A stretch of 64,000 nucleotides of DNA. Source: Myxococcales bacterium (GTDB lineage Bacteria > Myxococcota_A > Polyangia > Palsa-1104 > JAEUJZ01). Position numbers and translations under genes: made by a program. Below are positions 9,809-50,693 of this stretch, one piece after another. Position 1 is the first letter of the stretch; each line of letters opens with the position of its first letter. The stretch spans positions 1 through 64,000 of the forward strand of contig JAEUJZ010000127.1 in the NCBI GenBank assembly GCA_016794505.1. The letters run 5' to 3'. Below the pieces are notes generated by a model. The model was not told the origin of the DNA and did not search any database. It saw only the letters and a program-made list of their open reading frames with translations.

Positions 9809-9860
9809 CAAGTAAACTGCTCTCACTTTGGATGTAGTAAACACGAGCAGTTAGGCCAGA

Positions 9861-13526: not shown

Positions 13527-13565
13527 ACCATATGCTCCGAAGTATTGGAGCCAAGGGAAGTCGCA

Positions 13566-16622: not shown

Positions 16623-16846
16623 TCCACCCCGATGATTCGTTCCGCCCGGCAGCGCTGGCAACGGCCAGGCGTCTGATCCTGACTGCCGTCTTCAGCGCTC
16701 GCCAGGCCCATACAGCACGCCGTCGATGGCCTGTTCACCAGACAGCACCGACATCGGCCAACGCCGTGCGCACGTACCCGACAGGCCCGCGAACCAAGCG
16801 CGTGTGCCCTCGTGTGCGCAGGACGGGAGTCCAGATTCCTGAATAG
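16623..16846. other. Intergenic region, no gene seen
   Basis: About 220 bp between the A-T-R gene and the 55-bp repeat. No frame looks coding and no clear hairpin was seen. Confidence 0.5.
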
Positions 16847-16901
16847 GGACGCCTGACCCAATTAAACCCCTCCGTGAAGCACCCACGTTCACACACGGAG
16901 G
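16847..16901 (+). repeat. 55-bp repeat with SD-sequestering hairpin, right copy
   Basis: This is the second copy of the element at 138-192. CTCCGTG (16870-16876) can pair with CACGGAG (16894-16900) across a 17-nt loop. The right arm contains the GGAGG Shine-Dalgarno sequence of the recombinase gene, whose ATG starts 6 nt later. Folding would hide the ribosome site, suggesting translational control, or the repeat may form part of the recombination site. Confidence 0.65.
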
Positions 16902-16907
16902 AATTGG

Positions 16908-35051: not shown

Positions 35052-35491
35052 GCGAGAGACGGCTCAATCGAAGGAGGATCCACCCTGCCGGAAAAATCGA
35101 GCACCACACGCTGCGACAACCACGTCTTGTTTCGTTCCAGGAGAAGAGAACGTCCCGGCATGGGCGGACCCGAGGGGGTGCTCGGCGGGGACAGAACATC
35201 AGCAAGTGCAATGCCAGCCGGGGTGGAGTCGGATAGGCAGCGCGCTACGAGGCAGAGGCGCTTTGGTTGGGGCAATTTGCCAAACTGTGACAATTTGCAC
35301 CGATCGTTACAGGGGCTTCCTGCTGATCTGTGGCAGTGTGCGATGGCAGAATCCGAGCGCCAGCCATGCTGCATCGTCTTTGCAATGGCTCTGGCCCATG
35401 GGACGCTGGCGCAACCCGCTGAACGGCGGGGGATGCGCAGCAAACGGAAGAGAGAGGCCGGCACAATAAGCAGGCCCTAGCCCAGGTCGTC
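35052..35491. other. Gene-free stretch holding palindrome copy C
   Basis: About 440 bp without a credible gene. It lies between the 3' end of nhaA and the start of the ATPase fragment, and carries palindrome copy C at 35263-35305. Confidence 0.5.
35263..35305 (+). repeat. Intergenic palindromic repeat, copy C
   Basis: Reads TTGGTTGGGGCAATTTGCC and then ACTGTGACAATTTGCACC. It keeps the family core (GGCAATTTGCCAA, then TGTGACAATTTG) with a weaker outer dyad. It lies about 210 nt upstream of the ATPase fragment, which is read on the minus strand. Confidence 0.65.
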
Positions 35492-36910
35492 TCACAGCTC
35501 CGTGGATGTTTCGGCCTCGTCAGCGGTCTGGGCATGCGGAACAGAGAGCTGCGGCGGCAAGAGCGCATGACCAATCAGGACACTCAATGTGCCTGCTGTA
35601 ACGCTGGCCGCGAGCACGCCGAGCTTTGCAGAGCCAAGCAAGCCTGCGTCGGTAAAGGCGAGCTGCGCGATAAACAGCGACATCGTAAATCCAATGCCCG
35701 CGACCACTCCTAGTACGACCAGGTGACGCAGGCCCAGGCCGCGAGGCAAAGATGCCAGACCGAGCTTGATGCTCAGCAGGCTGGCAGCGAAGATGCCGAG
35801 TGGCTTTCCAAACAAGAGTCCAATCGAGCAGCCTAAAAGCACATCCAGCGTTGAAGCACCAAACGTCATTCCGTTGAGACGAACACCGGCATTGGCCAGC
35901 GCGAACAGGGGCATGATGGCGTAAGCCACCCACGGATGCAGCGCTTCGATGAGTGCTTCCGCGGGTGACTGGGCTTCGCGGCGAGCGCGATTGATCGCCC
36001 GCAGTCGACTGCTGAGCTGCTGGGTCGATAGCGTCTGGGTTGGCTGCGCGAGAAGCTGCTGCAAGTTCGACTGCACATCGTGCACAAAGCCGCTTGGCCC
36101 CAACCACGCCCGCACTGGAGTCAGAAGGCCCACGATCACACCGGCAATCGTCGGATGCACGCCAGCGCCATAGATGCCAGCCCAGGCAAGCACTCCAGGC
36201 AGCACGTACAGGAGCTTGGTGCGGATGCCCATGCGCTGCATGACCATGATGACCGCGATGCCGGCGCAGGCGAGCAGCAACCCTTTGAACGCGAGACCAG
36301 TGGAGTAAAACGCGGCGATCACCAAGATCGCTCCCAGATCATCGATGACGGCGATCGCCAACAGCAGCACACGCAGTGCGGCGGGCACACGCTTGCCAAG
36401 TAGGGTCAGCACTCCAAGCGCAAACGCGATGTCCGTAGCCATCGGCACACCCCAGCCCGAACGGGTAGCGGGGGATCCTGCCAAGGACAGGTACAGCAGC
36501 GCGGGCACCACCATCCCTCCACATGCCGCAACCAGCGGAAGCGCTGCGCGTCGCCACTCAGATAGCTCGCCATCGTGTAGCTCACGGCGGATCTCCATCC
36601 CCACGACGAAGAAGAACAGGACCATCAGGGCATCGTTGATGAACCACTCAAGCGAGCGCTCGAAGTGGAAGGGACCGATGCGAATGCCCAGTGGTGTCTG
36701 CCAGAGCGCTGTGTACAGCGAAGACCACGGCGAGTTCGCCCAGATCAGGGCCAGCACAGCCGCAAGCAACAGCAAGATGCCGCTGGCCGCTTCGATGTGA
36801 AGGAAACGCTCCAGAGGGCGCGTAGTTCGTCGTGCCAAGCGCAATAGCGGCGCCCACGCTTCCGGGGGTGCCCCCGAGGGGGAATTAGGATCGGTTTGCG
36901 AGGTCCACAT
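35492..36910 (-). CDS. nhaA: Na+/H+ antiporter NhaA
   Basis: About 472 residues of the NhaA family, which exchanges one Na+ or Li+ outward for two H+ inward. Signatures are FLHIEAASGILLLLAAVLAL, FFFVVGMEIRRELHDGEL, MATDIAFALGVLTLLGKRVP and the ion-binding double Asp in AIAVIDDLGAI. It is longer than E. coli NhaA (388) because of a polar N-terminus of about 30 residues and a longer loop with RAINRARREAQ near the middle. The ATG at 36910 is chosen as the first plausible start; the longer open frame upstream is non-homologous. No clear ribosome site is seen. It is divergent from an uncharacterised three-gene operon at 37142. Confidence 0.93.
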   Translation of the reverse strand: MWTSQTDPNSPSGAPPEAWAPLLRLARRTTRPLERFLHIEAASGILLLLAAVLALIWANSPWSSLYTALWQTPLGIRIGPFHFERSLEWFINDALMVLFFFVVGMEIRRELHDGELSEWRRAALPLVAACGGMVVPALLYLSLAGSPATRSGWGVPMATDIAFALGVLTLLGKRVPAALRVLLLAIAVIDDLGAILVIAAFYSTGLAFKGLLLACAGIAVIMVMQRMGIRTKLLYVLPGVLAWAGIYGAGVHPTIAGVIVGLLTPVRAWLGPSGFVHDVQSNLQQLLAQPTQTLSTQQLSSRLRAINRARREAQSPAEALIEALHPWVAYAIMPLFALANAGVRLNGMTFGASTLDVLLGCSIGLLFGKPLGIFAASLLSIKLGLASLPRGLGLRHLVVLGVVAGIGFTMSLFIAQLAFTDAGLLGSAKLGVLAASVTAGTLSVLIGHALLPPQLSVPHAQTADEAETSTEL

Positions 36911-37141
36911 CACACACCAGAAGAAGACTACGAGCGAACAAGCGGCACTCTTTGCCTGATCAAGACTGTCTAGCAAAGCACGAGCCATGCCCTGTGTGCC
37001 GTGCGCCAAGCAGAGGCTCGCAGTGGCATATCTCGTGCACTGGCTCGGGGAACTGGGTGGGGTCTTCTGCCGCGACCCCGCGTAGCGCAGTAAGCTCTTC
37101 CAAGACAAGCCGTTTGCTTGGGTTGAAACGATGGTAGGTGC

Positions 37142-37657
37142 ATGAAAAGCGAAGACGCCTCTGTGGACGAGGGGATCCGCATCACACCGCGTGTCCCTGC
37201 CTCTGAGATCGCAGCGTTCATCCAGCCTGATCAGATCGACTCGCTCCTTGAGCCCTGGCTGCCCGATGCAGGCGAAAGAGCCATGGTGATCCGCTGCCTT
37301 CTTGAAGTGGGACCGGCCCATCACCGTGGGTCCAACTTCGTCTTGCTGCGCCTTTTGGGCCTGCTCCTGAAACGCAGCGGAGCCTCGCCGACGCCGCTAT
37401 CCACAGGCGCGGTCGTACCCGTGCCCCTGCGAATCCCGCCCTCCGTCGATTCGAGTACCGGCCCGATGAACTATCCCTTGGGCGTGCCTACCGATGTACT
37501 TGAACGGCTGGCTCCGCGGGGCTCGCGTGCCTGGGTAGCCATGATCGACTGCCTAACCGATGGGCCGCCGCAGCACTCACTGGCCAACGCGGCGATGCTC
37601 TGCATCCTCAGCGCGTTACTGCGCGGAGGAGATACCGCGGCGGACCCCGCGCGATGA
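37142..37657 (+). CDS. Uncharacterised protein with two internal repeats
   Basis: A 171-residue protein, not recognised. It is built from two related halves. In the first, LLEPWLPDAGERAMVIRCL is followed by GPAHHRGSNFVLLRLLGLLL. In the second, VLERLAPRGSRAWVAMIDCL is followed by GPPQHSLANAAMLCILSALL. The shared pattern is Cys-Leu-x3-Gly-Pro-x2-His-x4-Asn-x3-Leu. Each half is preceded by a Pro-rich strand (IRITPRVPAS, VPLRIPPSV). No signal peptide or membrane segment is visible. The stop overlaps the next start by 4 nt, so it is coupled to the two following genes. Confidence 0.6.
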   Translation: MKSEDASVDEGIRITPRVPASEIAAFIQPDQIDSLLEPWLPDAGERAMVIRCLLEVGPAHHRGSNFVLLRLLGLLLKRSGASPTPLSTGAVVPVPLRIPPSVDSSTGPMNYPLGVPTDVLERLAPRGSRAWVAMIDCLTDGPPQHSLANAAMLCILSALLRGGDTAADPAR

Positions 37658-38292
37658 CGCCGCTTTCTCCGGCACTGACCCAGTCGTTCGCAGTCGCCGC
37701 CGCAGAGCTAGGGTTTTGCTCCGCAGCCTGGCTTTTCACTGAAGCCGTAGCCGCCGAGGGTGGCGACGCAAAGGTTCGCGTTCTCCGCGACTTACTGGGC
37801 CGCACCTATCCGGTGCTGGATGCGGTCTGTGTGGCCTGGCTGGCGGGTGAGCGGAAAGCCAGGACCGAGCCCGGTGCCGTCTGCAACGCACTACAGGGCG
37901 CAAAGGCGGTGATCGTCGTAGGCTTCGAGTCGCTGTTCCTGGATGCACTGCTTCCCACCTTGCGCGACAAAGCGATTCATTTGCTTGTGCAGAGCCGCGT
38001 CGATTCCGAGGCATGGGATCGCATTCTGTCGAACTATGACCATCGCGTTCGGAGCCTCGACTTAATCGATGTTCAGCGGCTAGCAGGCAGTCAGACTGCG
38101 ATCCTGTGTCTGCTCTACGGGGCCAATGAGCACTCGGTCCATGTGCCCCCGGCCTGGCTGCGCCTCTTCGGCGACGACGTTCGCGCGCAGTATCGATCGT
38201 TCATTGGCTGGGATGTGCTGCATCAGCCGATGTACGTCTATCCGCGCTGGCTGATCGAAGTGCCGCGCAGCGACTTTACGAGGATCGTATGA
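37654..38292 (+). CDS. Uncharacterised protein coupled to a permease
   Basis: A 212-residue protein, not recognised. It has no membrane segment. Alternating hydrophobic strands and helices (AKAVIVVGFESLFLDALLP, AIHLLVQSRV, AILCLLYGANEHSV) suggest an alpha/beta fold. It ends with an aromatic-rich section (GWDVLHQPMYVYPRWLIEVP). It overlaps both neighbours by 4 nt (ATGA), so the three products are probably made in fixed ratio and may form a complex with the permease. Confidence 0.55.
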   Translation: MTPLSPALTQSFAVAAAELGFCSAAWLFTEAVAAEGGDAKVRVLRDLLGRTYPVLDAVCVAWLAGERKARTEPGAVCNALQGAKAVIVVGFESLFLDALLPTLRDKAIHLLVQSRVDSEAWDRILSNYDHRVRSLDLIDVQRLAGSQTAILCLLYGANEHSVHVPPAWLRLFGDDVRAQYRSFIGWDVLHQPMYVYPRWLIEVPRSDFTRIV

Positions 38293-39617
38293 GCGCTGCT
38301 CCGCTGTGCCTCGCACTGCTCTTGTTGGTCACGCTGATCGCCCAAGCGGTGCTGCCCAGCTTACGTGTGCTGATCGTGGTCAGTGGTGCCGCGCTCTCGT
38401 GTCTTGCGGTCACACTCTTGGGCTTGTCCACGACGCACCAAGTGATGTCCGAGCTACCTTGGGATGTCCTCATTCTGCTCGTGGGCCTTGGCCTCTTGTC
38501 CGAGATCTTCGCCGCATCGCGTGTGTTCGGCTTGCTCGCGGTGCGCTTCACGCGGCTCAGCCAAGCCCAGCCGCGACGCTTGCTGGTTTTTTTCGCCGTC
38601 GGCATGTACCTGATCAGCGGCCTGGTCAACAACCTAACGGCGCTTCTGCTCGTGCTGCCGATCCTGCACATCTTGCTCAAGCTCCTGGGCTATCCACAGC
38701 GCTATGTGTCGTGGACGCTGGGCGTGCTCTTGGTCGCCTGCAACCTGGGAGGCGCGGCGACCCCAATCGGCGACTTTCCCGCAATCTTGCTGTTGAGCAG
38801 TGGTCGCATGCAGTTCGGTGCCTATCTGCGGTATGCCGCACCGCCAACGCTGCTGGGTCTGGCGATCTTGCTCTTCGTCGTTCTGGTCTGGGTGCGGCCT
38901 CATCGATCTGTGGAGCGCGATCCGCTGACCTCGCGACTGTCTGTCTTGATCATGGAGCGCCTGTATCGCGGCGTGCGTCTGGACCGTCTTCGCTTTGTGC
39001 CAGCGGCGTTGATACTTCTTCTGATGCTCTTTGCGTGGATCGCAGTGCCTGCGAAGAGTGGCGTTGGCGCAGAATTGATCTGCTGGTTGGGCGTCTCGTG
39101 CGCGCTCCTGCTCAATCTGAAGAGAGGCGAGCACTTGCTGCGCACCCGCGTCGATGTCGAAGCCGTCCTGTTCTTGCTCTCGCTCTTTGTCATGGTGGCC
39201 GCCGTTCGCCAGAGCGGACTGTTCTCGCGCCTCGCCCAAGCGCTGATTCATCTGCCTCTGTCCGCGCAAGGCCAGCTCGCGGTGTTTCTCCTCGCAGCGG
39301 GTGTACTCACCGGGCTCTTCTCTGCCGGTCCCAGTATGGCCGGACTGCTAGAGGTGGCGCATGTGCTGGCACAGAAGCTGCCCCCACAAGCCGTCTACGT
39401 CGGCCTTGCGTTGTCCGTCTGTGCGGGAAGCTCGCTATTCCTGACGGCGGCGACTTCCGGTCCCATGGCGCAAGCGCTCACGGAGCGCGCCCAACTAACC
39501 GACAGCCAGGGTCGTCCGCTCCACTTCGGCTTTGCCGAGTTCTTGCCGATTGGGTTGCTTAGCTTCGCGGTGATTCAGAGCATCGCGATTGGGTATGGAT
39601 GGCTGTTCACGCGATAG
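38289..39617 (+). CDS. SLC13/ArsB/NhaD-type ion permease
   Basis: A 442-residue integral membrane protein with about 11-12 helices. The paired re-entrant loop motifs GLVNNLTALLLVLPIL and NLGGAATPIGDFPAILLL match the ion transporter superfamily that includes ArsB, NhaD and SLC13 carriers. A C-terminal counterpart is GLFSAGPSMAGLLEVA with AGSSLFLTAATSGPMA. The substrate could be Na+/H+, citrate or another anion; I cannot choose from sequence. It is the last gene of a tightly overlapped operon with two unknown soluble proteins. Confidence 0.75.
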   Translation: MSAAPLCLALLLLVTLIAQAVLPSLRVLIVVSGAALSCLAVTLLGLSTTHQVMSELPWDVLILLVGLGLLSEIFAASRVFGLLAVRFTRLSQAQPRRLLVFFAVGMYLISGLVNNLTALLLVLPILHILLKLLGYPQRYVSWTLGVLLVACNLGGAATPIGDFPAILLLSSGRMQFGAYLRYAAPPTLLGLAILLFVVLVWVRPHRSVERDPLTSRLSVLIMERLYRGVRLDRLRFVPAALILLLMLFAWIAVPAKSGVGAELICWLGVSCALLLNLKRGEHLLRTRVDVEAVLFLLSLFVMVAAVRQSGLFSRLAQALIHLPLSAQGQLAVFLLAAGVLTGLFSAGPSMAGLLEVAHVLAQKLPPQAVYVGLALSVCAGSSLFLTAATSGPMAQALTERAQLTDSQGRPLHFGFAEFLPIGLLSFAVIQSIAIGYGWLFTR

Positions 39618-39642
39618 CCCTACTAAGAACGATCTTTGAACT

Positions 39643-40383
39643 TCAACTTCGTGCGCTCAAAATCCGGTGCAATAACAGATCCACTTCACTCTGGTTCTTC
39701 AGATACAAGCAGGCAGCGGATGCAGCACGATACCCGACCCGGATTCCCAGGACACGCTGCTCTGCGGCGAGCGCAAAGGCCGGCTCATCGGTGGCGTCGT
39801 CGCCCAGAAACAGCGCATGTGAGCATCCGAAGGCATCGAGGGCTCGCAGCAGCCCTTGTCCTTTGTGTAACGCTCCAGGCGGCAGCAAGCTGAGCACGTA
39901 CTTGCCTGGGATAAGCGCTCCGGCACCCAAGTCTGTTGCCACAGCGGATGTCATGTCAATTACACGCTGCCGATGGAAGGCTCGACGGTAGTGAACCGAG
40001 ATCGAGGCCGCCTTGTCTTCAATCTCGACGCCTGGAATTGCAGACAGACATTGCCGCAGCACAGGGAGCACTCGCGCTGTCCAACAGCGCAGAGGTTCTA
40101 GATCGCTCCAGGGCTCACTGCCGTGGTTCCCGATGATCTCAGCCAGAGCGATGCCCTCCATTCGACACGTCACGTCCGAGCGCGCACGCCCCGAGACGAC
40201 GATGCACGGATATCGCAAGGCTAGAGGCTGAAGTAGATGGCGGGTCGAATCTGGCAGCCTCGCCTGATCCGGTTGTGAGACGATGGGCGCGAGCGTGCCA
40301 TCAAAGTCCAGGGCTAGCATCGGTCGTCTCGACAACCACGAACGCAGGAGGGACCATCCTGCACTGCCAAGCGCCCATTTCAT
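39643..40383 (-). CDS. otsB: Trehalose-6-phosphate phosphatase
   Basis: A 246-residue HAD-superfamily phosphatase that removes phosphate from trehalose-6-phosphate. Motif I is ALDFDGTLAPIV, with nucleophile and acid Asp. The VVSGRARSDV segment matches motif II. The cap domain has EDKAASISVHYRRA, and the final motif is LFLGDDATDEPAF. The length is normal for OtsB. The start overlaps the otsA stop by 4 nt (ATGA), so synthase and phosphatase are translationally coupled. It is convergent with the permease gene. Confidence 0.93.
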   Translation of the reverse strand: MKWALGSAGWSLLRSWLSRRPMLALDFDGTLAPIVSQPDQARLPDSTRHLLQPLALRYPCIVVSGRARSDVTCRMEGIALAEIIGNHGSEPWSDLEPLRCWTARVLPVLRQCLSAIPGVEIEDKAASISVHYRRAFHRQRVIDMTSAVATDLGAGALIPGKYVLSLLPPGALHKGQGLLRALDAFGCSHALFLGDDATDEPAFALAAEQRVLGIRVGYRAASAACLYLKNQSEVDLLLHRILSARS

Positions 40384-42644
40384 AGGGGACCTTGTGCCCA
40401 GAGCAACGCATCGCGAGAGGACTCGCTCGCCTCGCTGGTCTCGCGTTGCCGTAGGCGTTGATTAAGGCGTTCCCGCTCCCGCAGCCGGGCCGCATCGAGC
40501 AGCATCCGCCCAGCCCAGCGATAGACGTTGAACTCTGCCACGAGCGCGCGCAGCGAGCGCATGCGCTCGCGCTGCAGGTCGCTCGGCATCAGAAGCGCAT
40601 TGTGCATGGCGGCACAGGTCTGGCGGATGTCATAGGGATTCACGATCAACGCATTAGTCAGCTCTTGCGCGGCCCCGGCGAACTGACTCAGCAAGAGCAC
40701 CCCTTGCTCATCATCGCGCGCGGCAACAAACTCTTTGGCGACGAGGTTCATACCGTCGTGCAAGCTGCTGACATAGCAGAACTCTGCAGCGCGATAGTAG
40801 CGGAATACCGTCGGCGGCTCGTGGTGCGCACGCGCGAAGACGATAGGCTGGTACTGCGGTCGGCGGAAGCGCTGGTTGATGCGCTCCGCAAGCTCTAGCA
40901 GGCGATCATTCAAGGTGCGATAGCGCGGGATCACAGTTCGGCTGGGGGCTCCGAGCTGCACAAAGACAAAGCGTCCAACAAGCTCTGGATGCGCTTCCAG
41001 CAGCGCTTCCACGGCGAGGAGTCTCTCCTCAATCCCCTTGGTGTAGTCGATGCGATCTACACCAACGCCAAGCAGTGCGTCTGGAGCCAAGCCCAGCTCA
41101 GCACGGACGCTAGCTCGACACTCGGCGATCGATGGTGCTTGTGTCGCCCAGGGATTTGGCCACGCGATTGAGATGGGATATGGGCGAACGAGCGTGGCCT
41201 TGGCTTGGCGAATGACTGCATCATTCTCTCGATCGAGCCGTGCTTCTAGAAAGCGATCCACCGCTTCAAGGAAGTTGTTGCAGTGTGCCTGCGTGTGAAA
41301 GCCAACGATGCTACTGCCGAGAAGTCCCGAGAGGATCTCGCGATGCCAGGGGCAGATGCCAAAGCGCTCAGCATTGGGCCAGGGGATGTGCCAGAAGGTA
41401 ATGAGCGTCGCGCGCGGCAGGCGCCTGCGGATCATCGCGGGAGCGAGCGCGAAGTGATAATCCTGCACGAGCACGATCGGGTCCTCGCACTCGGCTTCGT
41501 CGCAGACGGCATCGGCGAAGCGCTGATTGACCTCGCGATACGCAGCGAAGTCGCTGTCCCGAAACTCTGGCCGGTTGTGTGCAAGATGGCACAGCGGCCA
41601 GAGCCCTTCATTGGCGAAGCCATAATAGTAGCCCTGCTCTTCTGCCTCACTCAGCCAGACCCGTCTCAGCCAGTACGCGGGATCATTCGGGGGCACTTGC
41701 AGACGGTTCTTGGCATCCACCGTCTCGCGATCTGCACTGCCGCTGCCATGCGCGATCCACACACCAGAACAAGCGCGCATCACCGGCTCTAGTGCGGTGA
41801 CGAGACCACTCGCGGGGTGAAGGATCTGCACGCTCCCGGAAGCGGTGCGGTTGTGGATGTAGGGCTCGCGGTTCGCGACCAAGAGCACGCGCTCTCCCTG
41901 CAAGTGCTCGGTCAACACACCGCGAAGCCGCTGCGGGCTCCAGCGACCTTCCTGCTGGCCGCGCTCTCGCTCACGCACAAGCTGCCCTACCAAGGCACGC
42001 ACGTCGGCGGCGACCGGGGCAAAGTCCGCTTCGGGCTCTCCCCCCTGAAGCTGCGCCCGCAGCGTGTTCGTCCACCTGCGCCACAGTCCGCGGGTCAGAA
42101 GCAGGGTTAGAAGAGATGCAGCGATCGAAAGCAGCGCGAAGGCGATGAAGAGGAAACGCTGAGAGGCTCCTTCGCGGCGGTCGAGAAAGCTCAGATCATG
42201 AATGAGCAGAATGACGCCGAGCATCTGGTCATCGTGTCGCAGCGGTAGCGCTGTCAGGTGAACCCGACCCGTTGGCAGTGTCACCATTTCCCGGATCGGG
42301 CCACTTTGGGTCTGTGCTCTGGGCAGCTGAGCAGCACAGGCCAGCTGAGCAGGAAATTCTTCCGTCTCAACAGCAATTTCTCCCGAAGCTCCGCAGGCCG
42401 CAGCCGCTAACAAGCGGTCATCGCGGGTCAGTTCGCTTAGGATTTCGCGGATCTGTCCAAGATCCTTGGCTTGCCAGGCCGCCGTCAGATTGCGTCGCGC
42501 CCCATGCATGGCGAGATCTCCTCGCAGCTGCAGATCGCGCTCGGTCCACCGCCACAGCGTGCGCTGTACAAGGAGCTCGGCGGTCCAGGTCAGCGCAGCT
42601 AGACCCAGCAGCAAACCAAGCAAGACTTTCCAGGTACGCCGCAT
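40380..42644 (-). CDS. otsA: Membrane-anchored trehalose-6-phosphate synthase with sensor-like N-terminus
   Basis: A 754-residue protein. From about residue 250 it is a GT20 synthase making trehalose-6-phosphate from UDP-glucose and glucose-6-phosphate (LLVANREPYIHNR, VLVQDYHFALAPAMIRRRLP, FWHIPWPNAERFG, GFHTQAHCNNFLEA, GVDRIDYTKGIEERL). Before this lie a membrane helix (residues 7-27), an extracytoplasmic segment of about 130 residues, a second helix (FLFIAFALLSIAASLLTLLL) and a HAMP-like linker, the layout of a chemoreceptor or histidine kinase. Typical OtsA is about 470 residues. The enzyme is therefore probably held at the membrane and tuned by an external signal such as osmotic stress. 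It is coupled to otsB and divergent from the GH15 gene with 63 bp between them. Confidence 0.9.
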   Translation of the reverse strand: MRRTWKVLLGLLLGLAALTWTAELLVQRTLWRWTERDLQLRGDLAMHGARRNLTAAWQAKDLGQIREILSELTRDDRLLAAAACGASGEIAVETEEFPAQLACAAQLPRAQTQSGPIREMVTLPTGRVHLTALPLRHDDQMLGVILLIHDLSFLDRREGASQRFLFIAFALLSIAASLLTLLLTRGLWRRWTNTLRAQLQGGEPEADFAPVAADVRALVGQLVRERERGQQEGRWSPQRLRGVLTEHLQGERVLLVANREPYIHNRTASGSVQILHPASGLVTALEPVMRACSGVWIAHGSGSADRETVDAKNRLQVPPNDPAYWLRRVWLSEAEEQGYYYGFANEGLWPLCHLAHNRPEFRDSDFAAYREVNQRFADAVCDEAECEDPIVLVQDYHFALAPAMIRRRLPRATLITFWHIPWPNAERFGICPWHREILSGLLGSSIVGFHTQAHCNNFLEAVDRFLEARLDRENDAVIRQAKATLVRPYPISIAWPNPWATQAPSIAECRASVRAELGLAPDALLGVGVDRIDYTKGIEERLLAVEALLEAHPELVGRFVFVQLGAPSRTVIPRYRTLNDRLLELAERINQRFRRPQYQPIVFARAHHEPPTVFRYYRAAEFCYVSSLHDGMNLVAKEFVAARDDEQGVLLLSQFAGAAQELTNALIVNPYDIRQTCAAMHNALLMPSDLQRERMRSLRALVAEFNVYRWAGRMLLDAARLRERERLNQRLRQRETSEASESSRDALLWAQGPL

Positions 42645-42707
42645 GCAAGGGATTCACAGCAGCAACCATGCCACCTCTGCGCGCTAGCGCCCGCCTGGAG
42701 AATTCGG

Positions 42708-44480
42708 ATGCAGCTTGAGACCTTGGGACTTGTAGGGAACTGTCAGATTTCCGCGCTGGTTTCCGCATCGGGAGCTGTGGTCTGGTGCTGTCTTCCGCGC
42801 TTTGACTCCGAGCCTGTCTTTGCCGCACTACTCGACGAACTCGCGGGCGGCTCGATGCTCATCGCCCCGGATGAAGGAGGCGTGGGGACTCAACGATATC
42901 TTGAAAACACCAATGTACTGGAGACTCGCTTCGATACCGGGAGCGGTAGCTTTCGCATCCTCGATTTTGCGCCGCGCTTCGTGCTGTACGAGCGGTTCTT
43001 CAGGCCCACCAAGCTGTGCCGCATCATCGAGCCGATCGAGGGAAGCCCGCGCATCCGCATGAGCTGCAAGCCTCGTTTGGGTTGGTCAAAAGGTGTGCCC
43101 ACCGAGACGCAGGGCTCGCATCACATCCGCTACCACGGATATGCCTCGCAGCTTCGCCTGACCACAGATGTTCCGCTGTCCTATCTAAATGAGCAGGCAT
43201 TCGCGCTGACCGAGCGCAAGCATCTGGTGCTGAGCTGGGGCGATCCCGTGGAGGAACCATTGGCCCCACTGTGCGAGCGCTTTCTGAGCAGCACCGTGCA
43301 GTACTGGCAGACCTGGGTGAAGCACTGCTCGATTCCTCCGCTTTGGCAGAAGGAAGTGATCCGCTCTGCGCTGGCGCTCAAGCTGCACTGTTTTGAAGAC
43401 ACTGGCGCCATCGTCGCTGCGCTAACCACTTCGCTCCCCGAGGCACCGGCTAGCGGACGCACCTGGGACTATCGTTACTGCTGGCTACGGGATGCGTACT
43501 ACGCGATCAGTGCCTTTCGCTTGCTCGGTCACTTCGAGGAGCGCGAGCAGTTCATTCAGTTCTTGCTCAATGTCGCCGCCAGCGCGCCTGATCTAGACCT
43601 AGCACCGCTGTACGGCATCGATGGCCGGACACTCGCGGACGAGCGCATCCTGAGCACCTGGCCAGGCTTTGAAGGACACGGACCCGTGCGCGTTGGCAAT
43701 GCTGCAGCGGCGCACCGGCAACACGATGTCTTTGGCGAGATGGTCCTGGCGCTATCGCCCATATTCTTCGACGAGCGTTATGCAGCCGAGCGCTCCGAGG
43801 CGAGCCTGAGCCTGCTTCTGCGCCTAGCACGCAAGGCCGCAGCTGTGGCTGGAACCCCGGACGCAGGCATCTGGGAGTATCGCAGCGACTGGCGACCGCA
43901 GACGTTTTCCAGCTTGATGTGCTGGGCGGCCTGCGACCGCGTGGCCCGCGTCGCGCAAAGGCATGCACCCGCGCAGGAGCGCGAGTTCCGTGGGGCGGCG
44001 GATCAGCTTCGCGGGCAGATCCTGGCGCGTAGCTTTAACGCAGGCATGCAGAGCTTGGTTGCGACGTATGACGGCAGCGAGCTGGATGCGTCGCTGTTGC
44101 AGGCCGTGATGCTTCGTCTGTTACCCGGACAGGATCCGCGGATCTTGAGCACAGTGCGCGCGATCCAGCAGTCCCTCCGCGTGCCCCCCAGCGTCTGGCT
44201 CCGTCGCTACGCAGTTGATGACGGCTTCGGCGTGCCGCGGAGTGCCTTTGTGATCTGCACCTTCTGGCTGATTGAGGCACTCGCTCTTTGTGGTCAAGTC
44301 GATGAAGCGCGGCAAGCCATGGAGCAGGCGCTGCTCGCACTGTCTCCTCTCGGTCTGCTCTCGGAGGACATCGATGCGCACAGCGGTCGCCTGTGGGGAA
44401 ACTTTCCGCAAGCGTACTCGCACGTCGGACTGATCCATGCTGCGTTCGCGGCTTCTCCCCGCTGGGCTGACCTCTTGTGA
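42708..44480 (+). CDS. Glycoside hydrolase family 15 (glucoamylase/trehalase-like)
   Basis: A 590-residue GH15 enzyme. The N-terminal beta domain starts LGLVGNCQISALVSASGAVVW, and the catalytic (alpha/alpha)6 barrel has RTWDYRYCWLRDAYYAI and the general acid region AGIWEYRSDWR (E390). The C-terminal end HSGRLWGNFPQAYSHVGLI is typical. There is no signal peptide, so it acts in the cytoplasm. Members cleave alpha-glucosides, and several bacterial ones are trehalases. Being divergent from otsA-otsB by 63 bp, trehalose turnover is the most likely job, but glucoamylase activity cannot be excluded. Confidence 0.88.
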   Translation: MQLETLGLVGNCQISALVSASGAVVWCCLPRFDSEPVFAALLDELAGGSMLIAPDEGGVGTQRYLENTNVLETRFDTGSGSFRILDFAPRFVLYERFFRPTKLCRIIEPIEGSPRIRMSCKPRLGWSKGVPTETQGSHHIRYHGYASQLRLTTDVPLSYLNEQAFALTERKHLVLSWGDPVEEPLAPLCERFLSSTVQYWQTWVKHCSIPPLWQKEVIRSALALKLHCFEDTGAIVAALTTSLPEAPASGRTWDYRYCWLRDAYYAISAFRLLGHFEEREQFIQFLLNVAASAPDLDLAPLYGIDGRTLADERILSTWPGFEGHGPVRVGNAAAAHRQHDVFGEMVLALSPIFFDERYAAERSEASLSLLLRLARKAAAVAGTPDAGIWEYRSDWRPQTFSSLMCWAACDRVARVAQRHAPAQEREFRGAADQLRGQILARSFNAGMQSLVATYDGSELDASLLQAVMLRLLPGQDPRILSTVRAIQQSLRVPPSVWLRRYAVDDGFGVPRSAFVICTFWLIEALALCGQVDEARQAMEQALLALSPLGLLSEDIDAHSGRLWGNFPQAYSHVGLIHAAFAASPRWADLL

Positions 44481-44492
44481 AGGAATCTTCCC

Positions 44493-46406
44493 ATGCTCAC
44501 AGCGCTCGATCTGCTGATCTTCGCCGCGTTTCTTGCCTACTCGATCTGGAGTGGGCTGCGTTCACGTGCCGTCGCTGCCCAGAACTTGGAGGAGTATTTC
44601 TTGGCCGGACGCACGCTGCCCGGTTGGAAGGCCGGGCTGAGCATGGCGGCCACCCAGTTCGCCGCTGACACGCCGCTTCTGGTCACGGGTCTCATCGCCA
44701 CCGCAGGCATTTTTTCGCTATGGCGCTTGTGGATCTATGCGCTGGCTTTTTTGCTGATGGGTTTCTTGCTGGGCGGTGCATGGCGACGAGCCGGCGTCTT
44801 GACCGATGCCGAGCTAGCGGAGCTTCGCTATGGCGGTCGTCTGGCCACGGCACTGCGAGGACTCAAAGCGATCTACTTTGGCGTGATCTTCAACTGCGTG
44901 GTGATGGCGATGGTGCTGCTTGCCGCCACCCGCATCGCCGAGCCGTTCTTGCCCTGGAACACCTGGCTCCCGACGTGGCTATTCGAGCCCGTGGCCCTGC
45001 TCGTGCAGTGGGTGAATGTCCCCCTGACGACGACACCGGAATCGACCACATGGGTCACGCAGAGCGCCAACAACCTGATCTCGCTCCTGACCATTGTGAG
45101 CGTCACGACGCTGTATTCAACGACGGGTGGGCTGCGCGCAGTCGTGGATACCGACGTCGTCCAGCTTGGCATTGCGCTGCTGGGAACGGCGATCTACGCC
45201 GTCGCGGTGATCGGGCAGGTCGGGGGCCTGGGACAGCTACGGCTGCGACTCGACTCGCTGTACGGATCGCAGCACGCATCGCAGCTTCTGGCCTTCACAC
45301 CGGACGGCGCACGCGATGCCTCACTGGCTGTGCTCGGAGTCCTGGCGATCCAGTGGTTTGCGCAGATGAACAGCGATGGCACCGGCTATCTCGCGCAGCG
45401 CACGATGGCGTGTCGCAGCGATCGCGATGCCAAGACCGCAGCACTGCTGTTTGTGATCACCCAGGTCCTATTGCGATCCCTGTTGTGGCTACCGATTGGA
45501 TTGGGCCTCCTGGTTCTCATCCCTTTGACGAGTGCAGATCCCACGACGCAGACCGCGCTGCGAGAAGCCAGCTATGTCGAAGGAATCGTGCGCTTCTTGC
45601 CTGCGGGCGCACGCGGCCTCTTGCTCACTGGAATGCTCGCAGCCCTGGCATCGACGCTGGACACCCACTTGAACTGGGGAGCTTCGTACTTCGCCAACGA
45701 TCTGTACAAGCGCCTGTATTGCGAGGTGTGGCGCAAGACATCGCCTTCGGAACGCTCGCTGGTCTGGGTCGCACGGGGCAGCAACCTGCTCATTCTTGCG
45801 CTGTCGCTGGTTGTGCTGACCCAGCTTCGTTCCATTCAGTCCGCTTGGTCGATCAGCTTGCTCTTAGGAGCCGGCATGGGGGCTCCTTTGCTTCTGCGCT
45901 GGCTGTGGTGGCGCGTCAGCGCGGCCTGCGAGCTGGCGGCGGTTGCGGCCTCGCTTGTGACCGCACCGCTCTTGCTTCACTTCGTCTCTGGCGAAGCGCT
46001 GCGCCTGCTGTGGATGACCTTGATCACCAGCAGCACCGTGCTCGTGGTTGCATGGGCCTTTCCACAGTCGATCTCCGCCGGTCTGCTGACGTTTTATCGC
46101 CGCGTGCAGCCTCCAGGGTTTTGGGGTCCGGTTGCGGCACAAGTCGAGGGCTCAGAATCGCTCTCTTCGCGAAGGCTGTGGCGGGGTCTGGTGATCACCA
46201 GCACGGCGGCGCTTTCGATCTTCACCTGGCTCACGCTGCTCGGCAGCGTGCTTGTACAGGCTCCCGCACCTACTGGGATCTCCTCGCGAGCGGCCTGGTG
46301 GATCTTCCTTGCGCTAGTGGCGATGCTGACTTCCTGTCTGACTTGGATCTGGGGACTGCGCAGCCGAGCAGATGAGCAAAGCGCAGCAGCCGAGCCCGCG
46401 GCATAG
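44493..46406 (+). CDS. Sodium:solute symporter (SSS family)
   Basis: A 637-residue membrane protein with about 13-15 helices, starting 12 nt after the GH15 stop with AAGGAA upstream. It shows SSS features: YFLAGRTLPGWKAGLSMAAT near the N-terminus, the AQRTMACRSDRDAKTAALLF segment, and LASTLDTHLNWGASYFANDL in place of the usual Ser-Ala-Asp-Ser sodium-site helix. The solute is unknown. Adjacency to GH15 and otsAB makes a sugar or compatible solute plausible, by inference only. The polar C-terminus is Glu/Ala rich. Confidence 0.85.
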   Translation: MLTALDLLIFAAFLAYSIWSGLRSRAVAAQNLEEYFLAGRTLPGWKAGLSMAATQFAADTPLLVTGLIATAGIFSLWRLWIYALAFLLMGFLLGGAWRRAGVLTDAELAELRYGGRLATALRGLKAIYFGVIFNCVVMAMVLLAATRIAEPFLPWNTWLPTWLFEPVALLVQWVNVPLTTTPESTTWVTQSANNLISLLTIVSVTTLYSTTGGLRAVVDTDVVQLGIALLGTAIYAVAVIGQVGGLGQLRLRLDSLYGSQHASQLLAFTPDGARDASLAVLGVLAIQWFAQMNSDGTGYLAQRTMACRSDRDAKTAALLFVITQVLLRSLLWLPIGLGLLVLIPLTSADPTTQTALREASYVEGIVRFLPAGARGLLLTGMLAALASTLDTHLNWGASYFANDLYKRLYCEVWRKTSPSERSLVWVARGSNLLILALSLVVLTQLRSIQSAWSISLLLGAGMGAPLLLRWLWWRVSAACELAAVAASLVTAPLLLHFVSGEALRLLWMTLITSSTVLVVAWAFPQSISAGLLTFYRRVQPPGFWGPVAAQVEGSESLSSRRLWRGLVITSTAALSIFTWLTLLGSVLVQAPAPTGISSRAAWWIFLALVAMLTSCLTWIWGLRSRADEQSAAAEPAA

Positions 46407-46417
46407 ACGAGGACAGC

Positions 46418-46461
46418 TTGGCTGGGGCAAACTGCCAAGTTGAGGCAATTTGCCTCATGTC
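46418..46461 (+). repeat. Intergenic palindromic repeat, copy D
   Basis: Arms TGGGGCAAACTGCC and GGCAATTTGCCTCA pair almost perfectly, so this copy is strongly dyadic. It begins 12 nt after the symporter stop and ends 18 bp before a good -10 element (TACACT, 46480-46485) of the antiporter gene, so it covers the -35 region, as an operator or activator site would. Confidence 0.75.
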
Positions 46462-46479
46462 CGTCGAGCCGGCACTGGA

Positions 46480-46485
46480 TACACT
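46480..46485 (+). promoter_or_regulatory. -10 element of a probable leaderless antiporter mRNA
   Basis: TACACT ends 8 nt before the ATG at 46494, and no Shine-Dalgarno sequence is present between them. Transcription would start at or just before the start codon. No good -35 is visible; palindrome copy D occupies that position. Confidence 0.5.
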
Positions 46486-46493
46486 GATCAGCA

Positions 46494-48050
46494 ATGCACT
46501 TTGAAGCCGTCTTTGTCACGCTGTTCGCCGTCGCTACAGCGGTTGCGCTGACTGCGCGCTGGCTCAAGGTTCCGTACACAGTTGCATTGGTCGTGGCGGG
46601 CTTGGTGCTGGGCAGTGTGCGTGTCTTGGATCCGCCGCACCTGACCAAAGATCTGCTGTACGCGATCTTTCTACCGGGCCTGGTCTTCGAGGCCGCGTTC
46701 CACTTGGACTTCCAGAAGTTCTGGCAAAACAAGCTCGCCATTCACTCGCTGGCAGTGCCTGGGGTCGCGGCAGCGATCGGGCTGACCGCGATCCTGCTTC
46801 AGCCCGTTGCCAATGCCTTGCACTTCGTGGATGGATTTACCTTCGCACACGCGCTGGTCTTCGCTGCGCTGATCGCCGCCACCGATCCCATCGCGGTCGT
46901 CGCGCTGTTCAAGAGCTTGGGCGCCCCGAAGCGCCTGGCGATCCTGGTCGAAGGCGAGAGCCTACTTAACGATGGCACCGCCGTTGTCTTTTTCACGCTG
47001 ATCTTGGGTGTCGTCAGTGGTGGAGCGGGGTCGTTTTCCATCGCGGGTGCGGCGCTCGACTTCGTGCGCGTGGTGGGACTGGGCACCGCGATTGGCGTGG
47101 TCGTCGGCTACCTCGCGTCCAAGCTGACGCAGCGGGTTGACGATCCCATGATCGAGATCACGCTAACCACCATCGCCGCCTACGGCAGCTTTATCGTGGC
47201 CGAGCACTTTCATCTGTCGGGTGTCATCGCCACCGTCGCTGCGGGCATGCTCTGCGGCAACTATGGCGCGCGAACTGGCATGAGCCCCTCGACGCGCATC
47301 GCTGTCGAGTCGTTCTGGGAATACATCGCCTTCGCGCTGAACTCGATCGTGTTTTTGCTCATCGGCTTCGAGGTTCACATTCGTGATCTCGCGCGCTCGT
47401 GGAAGCCAATCTTGGTGGCCTACCTCGCGGTCACGGTCGGGCGCGCTGCGCTGATCTATCTGGCGACGCTGCTTTTGCGCCGCACACGCGAGACGCTGCC
47501 CTGGTCGTGGAGCGCGGTGCTGACCTGGGGCGGTCTGCGCGGCGGCTTGTCGATGGTGCTGGCCCTGGCGCTGCCGCGTGACTTCCCACATCGCGAGCTT
47601 CTGGTGACGATGACTTTTGGCGTGGTCATCCTCTCGATCTTGCTCCAGGGGCTCAGCATGGGACCGCTGCTGCGACGGCTGGGACTCATCGGGCTGCGTG
47701 CCGAGCGTCGCGAGTACGAGCGCGAGCGCGGCATTGTGCGGGCCAAGACCGCGGCGCTGCAAGCACTTGACCAATTGGTCAAGGATGGCGCGGTGCATGC
47801 CGAAGCGGTGACGCAGATCCGCAGCGACTATGCGCAAGAGATGAGCGATGCCGAAGGCCGCATCAAAGACATGCACCTGCAAGCCGATGAGCTACGCACC
47901 GAAGAACAGCACGCCGCTCGTCGCCACATGCTCGTCGTCGAAAAGGACGCCATCCTGGCCGCGTTCCGCAAAGGCTACGTCAGCCAAGAAGTTCACGACG
48001 AGCTACTGGCCGATGTCGATGCACGACTCCTGAACCTGGACTCGCACTAG
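46494..48050 (+). CDS. CPA1-family Na+/H+ antiporter
   Basis: A 518-residue antiporter. The membrane domain of about 12 helices has KVPYTVALVVAGLVLG, FLPGLVFEAAFHLD, AATDPIAVVALFKSLGAPKR (catalytic Asp) and LVEGESLLNDGTAVVFF, all typical of NhaP/NHE-type CPA1 carriers. A cytoplasmic tail of about 110 charged, helical residues follows (RREYERERGIVRAKTAAL, then KDAILAAFRKGYVSQEV). It exchanges Na+ or K+ for protons at the inner membrane. Its promoter region carries palindrome copy D. It is convergent with the nuclease gene, 6 nt apart. Confidence 0.92.
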   Translation: MHFEAVFVTLFAVATAVALTARWLKVPYTVALVVAGLVLGSVRVLDPPHLTKDLLYAIFLPGLVFEAAFHLDFQKFWQNKLAIHSLAVPGVAAAIGLTAILLQPVANALHFVDGFTFAHALVFAALIAATDPIAVVALFKSLGAPKRLAILVEGESLLNDGTAVVFFTLILGVVSGGAGSFSIAGAALDFVRVVGLGTAIGVVVGYLASKLTQRVDDPMIEITLTTIAAYGSFIVAEHFHLSGVIATVAAGMLCGNYGARTGMSPSTRIAVESFWEYIAFALNSIVFLLIGFEVHIRDLARSWKPILVAYLAVTVGRAALIYLATLLLRRTRETLPWSWSAVLTWGGLRGGLSMVLALALPRDFPHRELLVTMTFGVVILSILLQGLSMGPLLRRLGLIGLRAERREYERERGIVRAKTAALQALDQLVKDGAVHAEAVTQIRSDYAQEMSDAEGRIKDMHLQADELRTEEQHAARRHMLVVEKDAILAAFRKGYVSQEVHDELLADVDARLLNLDSH

Positions 48051-48056
48051 TCACGT

Positions 48057-48944
48057 CTATTTTTCGACAAAGACCATGTCGAAGACATCGGCCTGGCAAC
48101 GAACGCGGCTGTTCTTCTGTTCAAACAGCGCCGACAAGCGTAGCTCCATGCCTTTGACCACCACGGTGTCGTTCTCGCGCTCGCTTGCGGCGAGCCAGTC
48201 CGGGAAGTCTCGACCCGAAGCTGCGCCGGTTGCTGTCTGACGGAAGTAATCAATGCAGCGCCGGAAGAACTTGGGATAGATCAGGCTGGGGTGTTCCTCG
48301 GGAGGACGCTCGGGCTGGTGCCGCCCTGCGATCGACTCCCGGCCTTGCAGGCGAAACTCACGAGAGCAGTCGTGCTGCCAGATCCCAAACGCTCTGCGAC
48401 GAGCCGCTTCAGCGAGCTGACACAACACGGCGCGATGCGGTGCAGGCGTGGACGTGTACAGGAGCGGATACGCAAACCCGGCGGCGACCATGCGCGCATT
48501 CAGCGTCTTTGCGAGCAGAGCCTCATCGACACGAACCGCATCTCCATCGCCCGTGCTCGGCACATCCTCTCCGACCAGGGCATAGCTAATCGGCCGGCCA
48601 TGCGAGTCAAAGCTGCGGGTCAGGATGGCCCCGGGGATCTGGTCGTTTCTGCCCTTCACCACGCGCTGTCCCGAGAACTCGACCTCGCCAGTGCCCAGCA
48701 AGTGCACCAGGTGATCGCGGGCCTCATCGCCCATCGGCTGCACATCGGAGCCATAGTGGGTTTCGGGGGCGTCAATGCCTTCGAGGCGTAGCTGGAAGCT
48801 GCCCTTGGTGAAGTCGGCTTTGTAGGCTCCATACAGATCGCGAAAGGGCTCGACTGATGCGGCAAAGCGAATCGAGTCGCCATCGGGCTTAAAGCCGGCG
48901 ATCTGAAAAGACCCGCGGATGAGGCGATAGAACGAGTGCGGCAT
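48057..48944 (-). CDS. Staphylococcal nuclease-like (SNase) protein
   Basis: About 295 residues. It has the SNase/thermonuclease OB-fold core: DGDSIRF, SFQLRLEGIDAPETHY with the Arg and Asp of the active site, and ARMVAAGFAYPLLYTS. The family proteins hydrolyse DNA or RNA with Ca2+. There is no signal peptide, and a C-terminal section of about 100 residues (PKFFRRCIDYFRQTATG, LRLSALFEQKNSRVRCQADV) is outside the SNase core and resembles an OB-like end domain. The ATG at 48944 has AGGAG 6 nt upstream; an earlier in-frame start at 48995 lacks one. Confidence 0.75.
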   Translation of the reverse strand: MPHSFYRLIRGSFQIAGFKPDGDSIRFAASVEPFRDLYGAYKADFTKGSFQLRLEGIDAPETHYGSDVQPMGDEARDHLVHLLGTGEVEFSGQRVVKGRNDQIPGAILTRSFDSHGRPISYALVGEDVPSTGDGDAVRVDEALLAKTLNARMVAAGFAYPLLYTSTPAPHRAVLCQLAEAARRRAFGIWQHDCSREFRLQGRESIAGRHQPERPPEEHPSLIYPKFFRRCIDYFRQTATGAASGRDFPDWLAASERENDTVVVKGMELRLSALFEQKNSRVRCQADVFDMVFVEK

Positions 48945-49106
48945 GCGTGGCTCCTGGTCGTGCGCGATTGCGCGGTGCGACGCTCTCTGCTGCATAAGTC
49001 GCGCCGTGCTTCGTCAGAGCCCTTGCACTGTACTGGCGTGGCATTGCGGCTGCACTGGATGCAGAAGTCCCTTGGGGACGGTCCACACTCAACGAAGGAG
49101 ATCCCG

Positions 49107-49268
49107 ATGAAGAAGCTAGCTCTTGGTCTGACCGCGCTGTTTGCCTTGTCGACGGCTGTCCCGGCGTTCGCCGCTGAAAAGGAGGAGGGCGCAAAGAAGG
49201 AAGCCAAAGCCGGCAAGAAGGGCGGCAAGAAGGCCCCAAAGAAGGGCGAGGACAAGAAGGGCGAGTAG
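49107..49268 (+). CDS. Tiny secreted Lys-rich protein
   Basis: A 53-residue product from an ATG with GAAGGAG upstream. The first 23 residues are a clear signal peptide (MKKLALGLTALFALSTAVPA, then FAA cleavage). The mature part of about 30 residues is almost only Lys, Gly, Glu and Ala (KKEAKAGKKGGKKAPKK), very basic and likely disordered. The family is unrecognised. Similar Lys-rich secreted peptides could bind polyanions, but this is a guess. Palindrome copy E begins 12 nt after its stop. Confidence 0.65.
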   Translation: MKKLALGLTALFALSTAVPAFAAEKEEGAKKEAKAGKKGGKKAPKKGEDKKGE

Positions 49269-49280
49269 GCGCAGACCAAG

Positions 49281-49323
49281 TTGGCTGAGACGTTTTGCCC
49301 ATTCGTAGCAAAATGTCACAGTC
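49281..49323 (+). repeat. Intergenic palindromic repeat, copy E
   Basis: CTGAGACGTTTTGC and GCAAAATGTCACAG form a nearly perfect 14-bp stem (one mismatch, one G-U) around CCATTCGTA. It lies between two convergent genes, ending 11 nt before the last base of the response regulator gene, where a bidirectional terminator would be expected. Confidence 0.75.
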
Positions 49324-49334
49324 CCATCGCTGGG

Positions 49335-50693
49335 CTAAGACGTGATGCCGTAGCGCTCCAGCTTGCGGTAGAGCGTCCGCCGGTCAAAGCCCAGGATCTG
49401 CGCCGCCAGCGACTTGTTACCAGCGACGACATCGAGCACGCGGAGGATGTAGCGGCGCTCGATCTCGTCCATGGTGACAAGCTCGCTGGGGTGGTCGCTG
49501 GGAACTAGGATCTGCGAGGGGCGGTAGTCGCGGATGCGATCCGGCAGATCATCGACGCCGATCTGGTTAAACGCCGCCAGCGCGACCGCGCGTTCGATGC
49601 AGTTCTGTAGCTCGCGGACGTTGCCCGGCCAGCTATAGGCCAGCAGGCGTTCGGCGGCCTTGGGATTCAGGCTTTCGACGCGCTTGCCGATGCGATTCGC
49701 GGTCTGCTGCAAGAAGTGCTGCGCAAGGAGAAGCACATCGTTTCCGCGTGTGCGCAGCGGAGGAAGCCGAAGCTGCACGACGTTCAGCCGGTAGAACAAG
49801 TCGCCTCGGAAACTCTTACTCTCGACAGCCTTCTCTAGATCCTGATTGGTCGCGGCCAGTACACGCACATCGACATCGATCTCGACATCGCTGCCGACGG
49901 GCCGCACCTTGCGCTCTTGCAGGGCGCGCAGCAGTCGCGGCTGCAAAGACAGGGGCAGGTCGCCGATCTCATCCAGAAAGATCGTGCCCTCGTGCGCTTG
50001 CTGGAACAGTCCACGGCGGGCGCTGCGGGCGTCGGTGAAGGCGCCGCGGGCATGCCCAAACAGCTCGCTCTCCAGCAGCGCTTCGGGCAGAGCTGAGCAG
50101 TTGATGGCGACGAAGGGGCCATCCTTGCGCTGGCTGCGCTGATGCAGGGAACGGGCGATCAGCTCTTTGCCAGTGCCGCTCTCCCCCAGGATCAGGACGG
50201 ATACGTCGGCGTCTGCGACACGCGAGACCAAGTCGAAGACCTGCTTCATCTCCTGACTGTCCCCGAGCACATGCTCGGGTTGCGCTCCGCTCACCGCCAA
50301 GCGCAGACGCTTGACCTCCTCACGCAGCGCACGATGCTGGACCGCTCGCTGAAGTACCAAGGCAAGGGCATCGACCTCTAGCGGCTTGGTCACGAAGTCA
50401 TAGGCTCCGGCGCGCATGGCTTCGACCGCCGACGCCATACTCCCAAATGCAGTGATCACCACAATGGGTACATCGGGGCGATTGCCGACGATCTGGCGCG
50501 TCAGCTCGATGCCGTTCTGTCCCGGCATGTTCAGATCCGACACGATGGCCGCGAAGTCGTTTTCTTGGACGAGATCCATGACCTTGCGCGGCTCGGTGGT
50601 CCAGCGCACAGCGAAGCCACGTCGGGCGAGGCCCAGCTCCAGCAGCTCGCACATTCCGCGATCGTCATCGATGGCGAGGATCAGCGGCTTCAT
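49335..50693 (-). CDS. NtrC-family sigma54-dependent response regulator
   Basis: 452 residues: a receiver domain with phospho-acceptor D53 (IVSDLNMPG), a sigma54 AAA+ domain with Walker A GESGTGKELIARSLHQ and Walker B FLDEIGDLP, and a C-terminal Fis-type helix-turn-helix (NKSLAAQILGFDRRTLYRKL). The sigma54-contact loop reads GAFTDA (217-222) rather than the usual GAFTGA. It activates transcription from sigma54 promoters when phosphorylated by its partner kinase. Its start overlaps the kinase stop by 4 nt, and it is the last gene of the RND efflux operon. It probably controls that operon in response to metal or envelope stress. Confidence 0.93.
   Translation of the reverse strand: MKPLILAIDDDRGMCELLELGLARRGFAVRWTTEPRKVMDLVQENDFAAIVSDLNMPGQNGIELTRQIVGNRPDVPIVVITAFGSMASAVEAMRAGAYDFVTKPLEVDALALVLQRAVQHRALREEVKRLRLAVSGAQPEHVLGDSQEMKQVFDLVSRVADADVSVLILGESGTGKELIARSLHQRSQRKDGPFVAINCSALPEALLESELFGHARGAFTDARSARRGLFQQAHEGTIFLDEIGDLPLSLQPRLLRALQERKVRPVGSDVEIDVDVRVLAATNQDLEKAVESKSFRGDLFYRLNVVQLRLPPLRTRGNDVLLLAQHFLQQTANRIGKRVESLNPKAAERLLAYSWPGNVRELQNCIERAVALAAFNQIGVDDLPDRIRDYRPSQILVPSDHPSELVTMDEIERRYILRVLDVVAGNKSLAAQILGFDRRTLYRKLERYGITS

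Follow-up and report, generated by a model that had tools for sequence, protein, structure and literature searches.

A trehalose-6-phosphate synthase fused to a predicted periplasmic sensor domain: some bacteria may control trehalose synthesis directly from an outside cue

Closest described systems

When a receptor carries a periplasmic domain between two transmembrane (TM) segments, what it controls is usually a kinase, a cyclase, or a chemotaxis protein. In the PDC/Cache receptors (CitA, DctB, KinD, and chemoreceptors such as PctC) and in WalK, the outputs are kinases or chemotaxis signaling domains, while nucleotide cyclases are the outputs of other PDC/Cache-type receptors. The protein analyzed here, coded in a 64,000-nt stretch of the Myxococcales bacterium contig JAEUJZ010000127.1 (the window), shares with them the predicted sensor fold and the order TM, periplasmic PAS-like domain, TM, and cytoplasmic output, but its output is a biosynthetic glycosyltransferase, a trehalose-6-phosphate (T6P) synthase. 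With OtsA/TPS1 (PDB 1GZ5 and 5JIO) it has in common the GT-B fold (TM-score on the target of 0.88 to 0.92), all the catalytic residues, and a trehalose-6-phosphate phosphatase (TPP) as partner. Those enzymes, however, are soluble, have no membrane or sensor module, and form a separate clade, and where OtsA has W42, the window protein carries a His.

Two other enzymes belong in this comparison. GSU2337 of Geobacter sulfurreducens is described as a T6P synthase "containing a domain 37% identical" to the Mycobacterium tuberculosis enzyme and is listed with the TPP GSU2336 (PMC2700814), the one directly relevant mention that we found. Geobacter relatives in the family described here carry the fusion, but the passage that describes GSU2337 in that paper, which is our only basis for comparison, does not mention an N-terminal module. 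The nearest outgroup GT20 protein is a T6P synthase coded on an Aminobacter plasmid (WP_083948901.1), which is 57.5% identical over residues 235 to 719 and has an N-terminal hydrophobic helix, but lacks the periplasmic domain and TM2 and has no TPP annotated next to it. We found no description of the architecture in the open-access literature on OtsA/TPS proteins with HAMP, Cache, or transmembrane features, and the word "transmembrane" is absent from a review of trehalose pathway evolution (PMC1769515). A known enzyme and a known sensor fold thus appear in a widespread combination that is apparently undescribed, although it may already stand in public domain databases. If our reading is true, an outside signal sets the rate of a stress-protectant biosynthetic enzyme with no intermediate steps, a route for fast posttranslational control of trehalose that can be tested in cultured Anaeromyxobacter, Janthinobacterium, and Noviherbaspirillum, and a large set of records named just "trehalose-6-phosphate synthase" would have to be corrected.

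Gene and domain organization

The synthase, of 754 amino acids, is coded by the minus-strand open reading frame (ORF) 40380 to 42644. Its parts and its two immediate neighbors are as follows.

39643..40383, minus strand: trehalose-6-phosphate phosphatase (PF02358, E = 2.9e-25; TIGR00685 above cutoff)
40380..42644, minus strand: sensor-fused trehalose-6-phosphate synthase, whole gene, 754 amino acids (ORF, GT20 Pfam match, homologs)
40491..41891, minus strand: GT20 catalytic domain, residues 252 to 718 (Pfam, OtsA/TPS fold match, invariant residues)
41892..42092, minus strand: signaling linker, residues 185 to 251 (AlphaFold2 model, conserved residues)
42093..42164, minus strand: TM2, residues ~161 to 184 (hydropathy; AlphaFold2 helix 152 to 199)
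42171..42554, minus strand: extracytoplasmic domain, predicted PDC/Cache type, residues ~31 to 158 (alignments, AlphaFold2, Foldseek)
42564..42626, minus strand: TM1, residues ~7 to 27, preceded by positively charged MRRTWK (hydropathy; AlphaFold2 helix 2 to 58)
42708..44480, plus strand: GH15 glycoside hydrolase with a trehalase-like N-terminal domain (PF00723, PF19291)

The N terminus of the synthase is effectively fixed, as an in-frame TGA lies 12 nt 5' of the ATG with no alternative ATG, GTG, or TTG between them. Hydropathy places the TM segments at 10 to 28 and 168 to 186 in stop-to-stop numbering (protein numbering plus 3), and the ~130 residues between them should lie outside the cytoplasm, because the positive MRRTWK precedes TM1 and the positive-inside rule applies. 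The initial annotation, made from the letters and ORFs of the window, had described two TM helices, an extracytoplasmic part of this size, and a GT20 domain in this ORF, a description with which hydropathy and the Pfam GT20 match agree. An assembly artifact, a frameshift, or a chance fusion can be ruled out, as the same layout is found in nearly all full-length relatives.

Distribution and evolutionary origin

A scan of 84,980 species genomes showed relatives to be coded in at least 579 stretches. Of the 80 best, which were retained, nearly all align from query residues 1 to 32 up to about residue 730. Approximately 120 relatives of full length, spread over at least eight phyla, have this layout and form one clade apart from soluble OtsA. 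By hydropathy, nearly all the full-length proteins keep the spacing TM1, ~130 to 150 residues, TM2, ~70 residues, and GT20, with an N-terminal module of 240 to 280 residues; the exceptions are proteins cut by contig ends, domain boundaries miscalled in over-long stop-to-stop frames, and two cases in which TM1 is below threshold and nevertheless aligned (L104 and L018). Members belong to the Myxococcota, Acidobacteriota, Planctomycetota, Pseudomonadota, Bdellovibrionota, Nitrospirota, Gemmatimonadota, and Thermodesulfobacteriota, and include the cultured isolates Anaeromyxobacter oryzae, Janthinobacterium, Noviherbaspirillum, Massilia, Paucimonas, and Sulfurisoma. A ninth phylum label comes from one Cloacimonadota MAG (L051), whose copy is almost identical to one from Geobacter and is probably mis-binned. 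How common the architecture is had been left by the initial annotation to a database search, and the answer is a patchy yet widespread distribution: it is present in 42 of the 318 genomes sampled from the class of the window, and in 16 to 17 of 200 from the order of Janthinobacterium sp. LM6 (17 if one soluble relative, in G610, is included).

In the more careful of two trees, the earliest branch is that of the soluble Massilia-type enzymes; Aminobacter comes next, followed by all the sensor-fused members, with support values of 87/92 for the sensor-fused group and 99/96 for this group with Aminobacter included. This order fits a stepwise assembly, from soluble to anchored to receptor-like, with a single gain of the sensor module. 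A quicker tree put Aminobacter inside the sensor-fused group, so a secondary loss of the module in Aminobacter may be the alternative. The Aminobacter plasmid gene (L109:5782-7599), in which a single N-terminal hydrophobic helix replaces the sensor module, could be either an evolutionary intermediate or a reduced form.

Periplasmic domain and linker

The periplasmic part is conserved. In an alignment of 84 sequences, 22 of its 130 columns are at least 80% identical, the corresponding counts being 4 of 30 columns for TM1 and 4 of 24 for TM2. W33, D37, D150, and R157 are invariant in an alignment of 68 diverse members. Both C84 and C103 are found in 99% of relatives, and the position of the pair in the periplasm suggests a disulfide. 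In an AlphaFold2 model of the N-terminal module built from the 68 sequences (pLDDT of 90.3), a long helix and a second helix are followed by two strands, one more helix, three strands, and finally the TM2 helix. The top Foldseek match of this model in the PDB was an integrative WalK-YycH model, followed by CitA (1p0z, E = 4.1e-5), WalK crystal structures (4ywz, 6.2e-5), DctB (3by9, 4.7e-4), KinD (5e-4), and domains of amino acid chemoreceptors, so a PDC/Cache sensor fold can be predicted. Searches by sequence gave far less: no Pfam Cache model reached its cutoff in the periplasmic domain, where only scattered weak matches to CHASE4, GAF_3, PAS_4, and dCache_3 appeared, and the N-terminal alignment profile had no meaningful match among PDB sequences. 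Judged by sequence, the domain is therefore unassigned. The N-terminal module diverges at roughly twice the rate of GT20. In the genome of the window, it was not found joined to any other output (E ≤ 10). At the phylum level it had one weak match (L122), a generic membrane sensor that is truncated and lies at the edge of a contig.

The finding that would have spoken against a sensor is a simple anchor that lacks any ligand-binding fold; the predicted fold contradicts this as far as prediction allows, and the conservation of the periplasmic part likewise disfavors a plain signal anchor. The receptor-like design proposed in the initial annotation is thus supported by the two TM segments, a conserved periplasmic domain with a predicted PDC/Cache fold, and a complete-looking active site in the cytoplasmic output.

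The "HAMP-like" character given to the linker fared worse. In the AlphaFold2 model, the TM2 helix runs to residue 199 and is followed by a short connector, a helix at 206 to 231, and a second helix at 237 to 248 that leads into GT20 strand 1 (253 to 256); G201, P210, D214, L218, W235, and L240 are conserved. The predicted layout after TM2 is reminiscent of HAMP (helices 152 to 199 and 206 to 231 around a connector, whose length varies among relatives), and a D-hydrophobic-R-x-L motif stands where HAMP carries DEIGxL. However, the window protein has no match to PF00672 (E ≤ 1), and HAMP is absent from the 25 most-matched Pfam families of the 68 members scanned. Comparison by hhalign of the linker profile with 17 HAMP domains of the same genome gave probabilities of 0.1 to 10%, versus 98.7 to 99.1% for the positive control, in which HAMP halves from that genome were compared with each other. 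Homology to HAMP is therefore rejected as demonstrable, and this region is best called just a signaling linker. Its length differs by ~10 to 20 residues between lineages. One member (L019:8001-10130) keeps the periplasmic domain and TM2, with most of the linker deleted, a natural deletion that could reveal whether this region is required.

Proposed mode of action

The architecture, its conservation, the gene cluster, and an active site that looks complete can be considered established at the level of sequence. From these we think it reasonably probable that the protein is a one-component transmembrane receptor-enzyme that tunes trehalose synthesis. The broader claim, that the family is an undescribed and widespread class of one-component receptors, spanning at least eight bacterial phyla, in which a periplasmic Cache-type sensor directly gates T6P synthesis, is put forward more tentatively, at somewhat less than even confidence.

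The PDC/Cache-type domain, probably stabilized by a Cys84-Cys103 disulfide and dimerizing through its helices, would detect a cue in the envelope or outside the cell, and the resulting conformational change would travel by way of TM2 and the helices after it directly into GT20 strand 1. The predicted helix 237 to 248 enters this strand a few residues before R259, which belongs to the acceptor-phosphate site and the glucose-6-phosphate-binding loop, so a shift of TM2 could alter the closure of the acceptor loop and with it the rate. Sensing would in this way set the rate of T6P synthesis. The overlapping phosphatase would complete trehalose and the divergent GH15 enzyme would probably degrade it, so that the locus could adjust trehalose without new transcription. 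In this scheme we infer the ligand, the disulfide, the dimerization, the signal transfer, and the direction of the effect, on a sensor fold that is itself predicted; that an external signal controls the enzyme directly, and that this signal is osmolarity, are likewise what we infer.

Some observations fit the receptor reading poorly. The variable length of the linker and the member that has lost most of it (L019) are awkward for a strict mechanical relay, the Aminobacter relative has a membrane anchor only, and the conservation of many periplasmic residues across phyla could reflect a structural role, not a sensor adapting to different ligands. In the strongest alternative, which we consider rather unlikely, the N-terminal module would be a localization device that does no more than keep the synthase on the inner membrane, close to transporters, substrate supply, or partner proteins, with the periplasmic domain as a structural or partner-binding element that has no effect on catalysis. 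Anchoring alone seems to be of value, because the closest outgroup, from Aminobacter, has the same GT20 type with one hydrophobic helix and no periplasmic domain, and both the loss of most of the linker in L019 and the roughly twofold divergence of the module relative to GT20 are in line with it. A simple anchor, however, would be unlikely to keep, across lineages as far apart as phyla, a whole PDC/Cache-like domain with its Cys pair and its invariant polar residues.

Genomic context

The phosphatase gene overlaps the stop of the synthase by 4 nt (ATGA), and the GH15 gene, whose top NCBIfam match is an archaeal trehalase below cutoff, diverges from the synthase with 63 bp between them; a promoter scan of this gap found nothing. 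Of 83 relatives, at least 72 have a same-strand TPP gene downstream and at least 54 have a GH15 gene within 4 kb, both counts being lower bounds because of early contig ends and miscalled domain boundaries. No other gene recurs in the wider neighborhood, where the remaining clusters reach at most 8 loci and one of them is an apparent antisense shadow ORF.

In the window, the neighbors also include three transporters of the Na+/H+ antiporter type (NhaA, a CitMHS/NhaD-like protein, and CPA1) and an SSF-family symporter. They form a cluster of ~14 kb (35491 to 49811) with the order NhaA, a 212-amino-acid protein, CitMHS/NhaD-like, TPP, sensor-fused synthase, GH15, SSF, and CPA1. A second copy, with a second sensor-fused synthase, is found in the same genome at 71 to 81% DNA identity (L115, G000:C148:192000-209000, positions about 3679 to 17000). 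The doubled cluster would be a salt/trehalose island that was duplicated or acquired long ago. No GT20 genes other than these two synthases were found in the genome (~92% complete), and the receptor form therefore accounts for any trehalose synthesis by GT20 enzymes seen there. The 212-amino-acid protein (window positions 37654 to 38292) has no Pfam or NCBIfam match; it is kept in the second copy at 70% identity and is also found near CitMHS in L007.

The ion transport genes suggest salt or osmotic stress as the setting, although such neighbors are not conserved family-wide. In a feedback or partner-sensing scheme, the domain might instead read a specific periplasmic molecule, e.g., a sugar or a carboxylate, or an envelope protein and not osmolarity, so that the nutrient state or the integrity of the envelope would be linked to trehalose synthesis. 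We regard this as improbable. The best structural matches do bind citrate, C4-dicarboxylates, and amino acids, with WalK in addition, and the antiporter context belongs to the lineage of the window, TPP and GH15 being the only widely conserved neighbors. However, no ligand motif was identified in the domain, and the classical role of trehalose together with the local Na+ transport genes fits osmotic or salt stress.

Catalytic domain and product

The GT20 assignment is clear. PF00982 covers residues 252 to 717 (profile positions 2 to 470 of 473, E = 3.9e-112) with 375.8 bits against a cutoff of 32.5, and the GT20 model gives target-normalized TM-scores of 0.85 to 0.92 against OtsA/TPS structures. 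The residues R259, G280, Y340, W349, D395, H419, R531, K536, R569, D630, and E638 are invariant in 68 aligned members; we take their counterparts in Escherichia coli OtsA to be R9, G22, Y76, W85, D130, H154, R262, K267, R300, D361, and E369, respectively (Met uncounted). On this basis, the active site looks complete. The NCBIfam OtsA equivalog TIGR02400 scores 396.5 bits against a cutoff of 564.85, which makes the protein a relative outside the strict equivalog group.

The likely product is T6P, as the downstream phosphatase passes its NCBIfam cutoff for T6P phosphatases and overlaps the synthase by 4 nt. That the enzyme makes something else, for example another alpha-glucosyl phosphate, so that the gene would not code for a T6P synthase, is very improbable: the clade stands apart from OtsA, with altered pocket positions (H299 for W42, Met counted; HDGMNLV for RDGMNLV) and a score under the OtsA cutoff, but the phosphate contacts R259, Y340, and R569 are invariant, the OtsA model outscores that of glucosylglycerol-phosphate synthase (396 versus 277 bits), and the coencoded T6P phosphatase is above its own cutoff. 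His299 is not linked to the membrane module, because soluble relatives (L144) share it with the sensor-fused clade. The WIAHGSG motif is also carried by soluble sister enzymes seen in Massilia and in another genome of its order (L144:2834-4510 and L187:1-3063), and Massilia sp. HP4 has both the membrane form and the soluble form.
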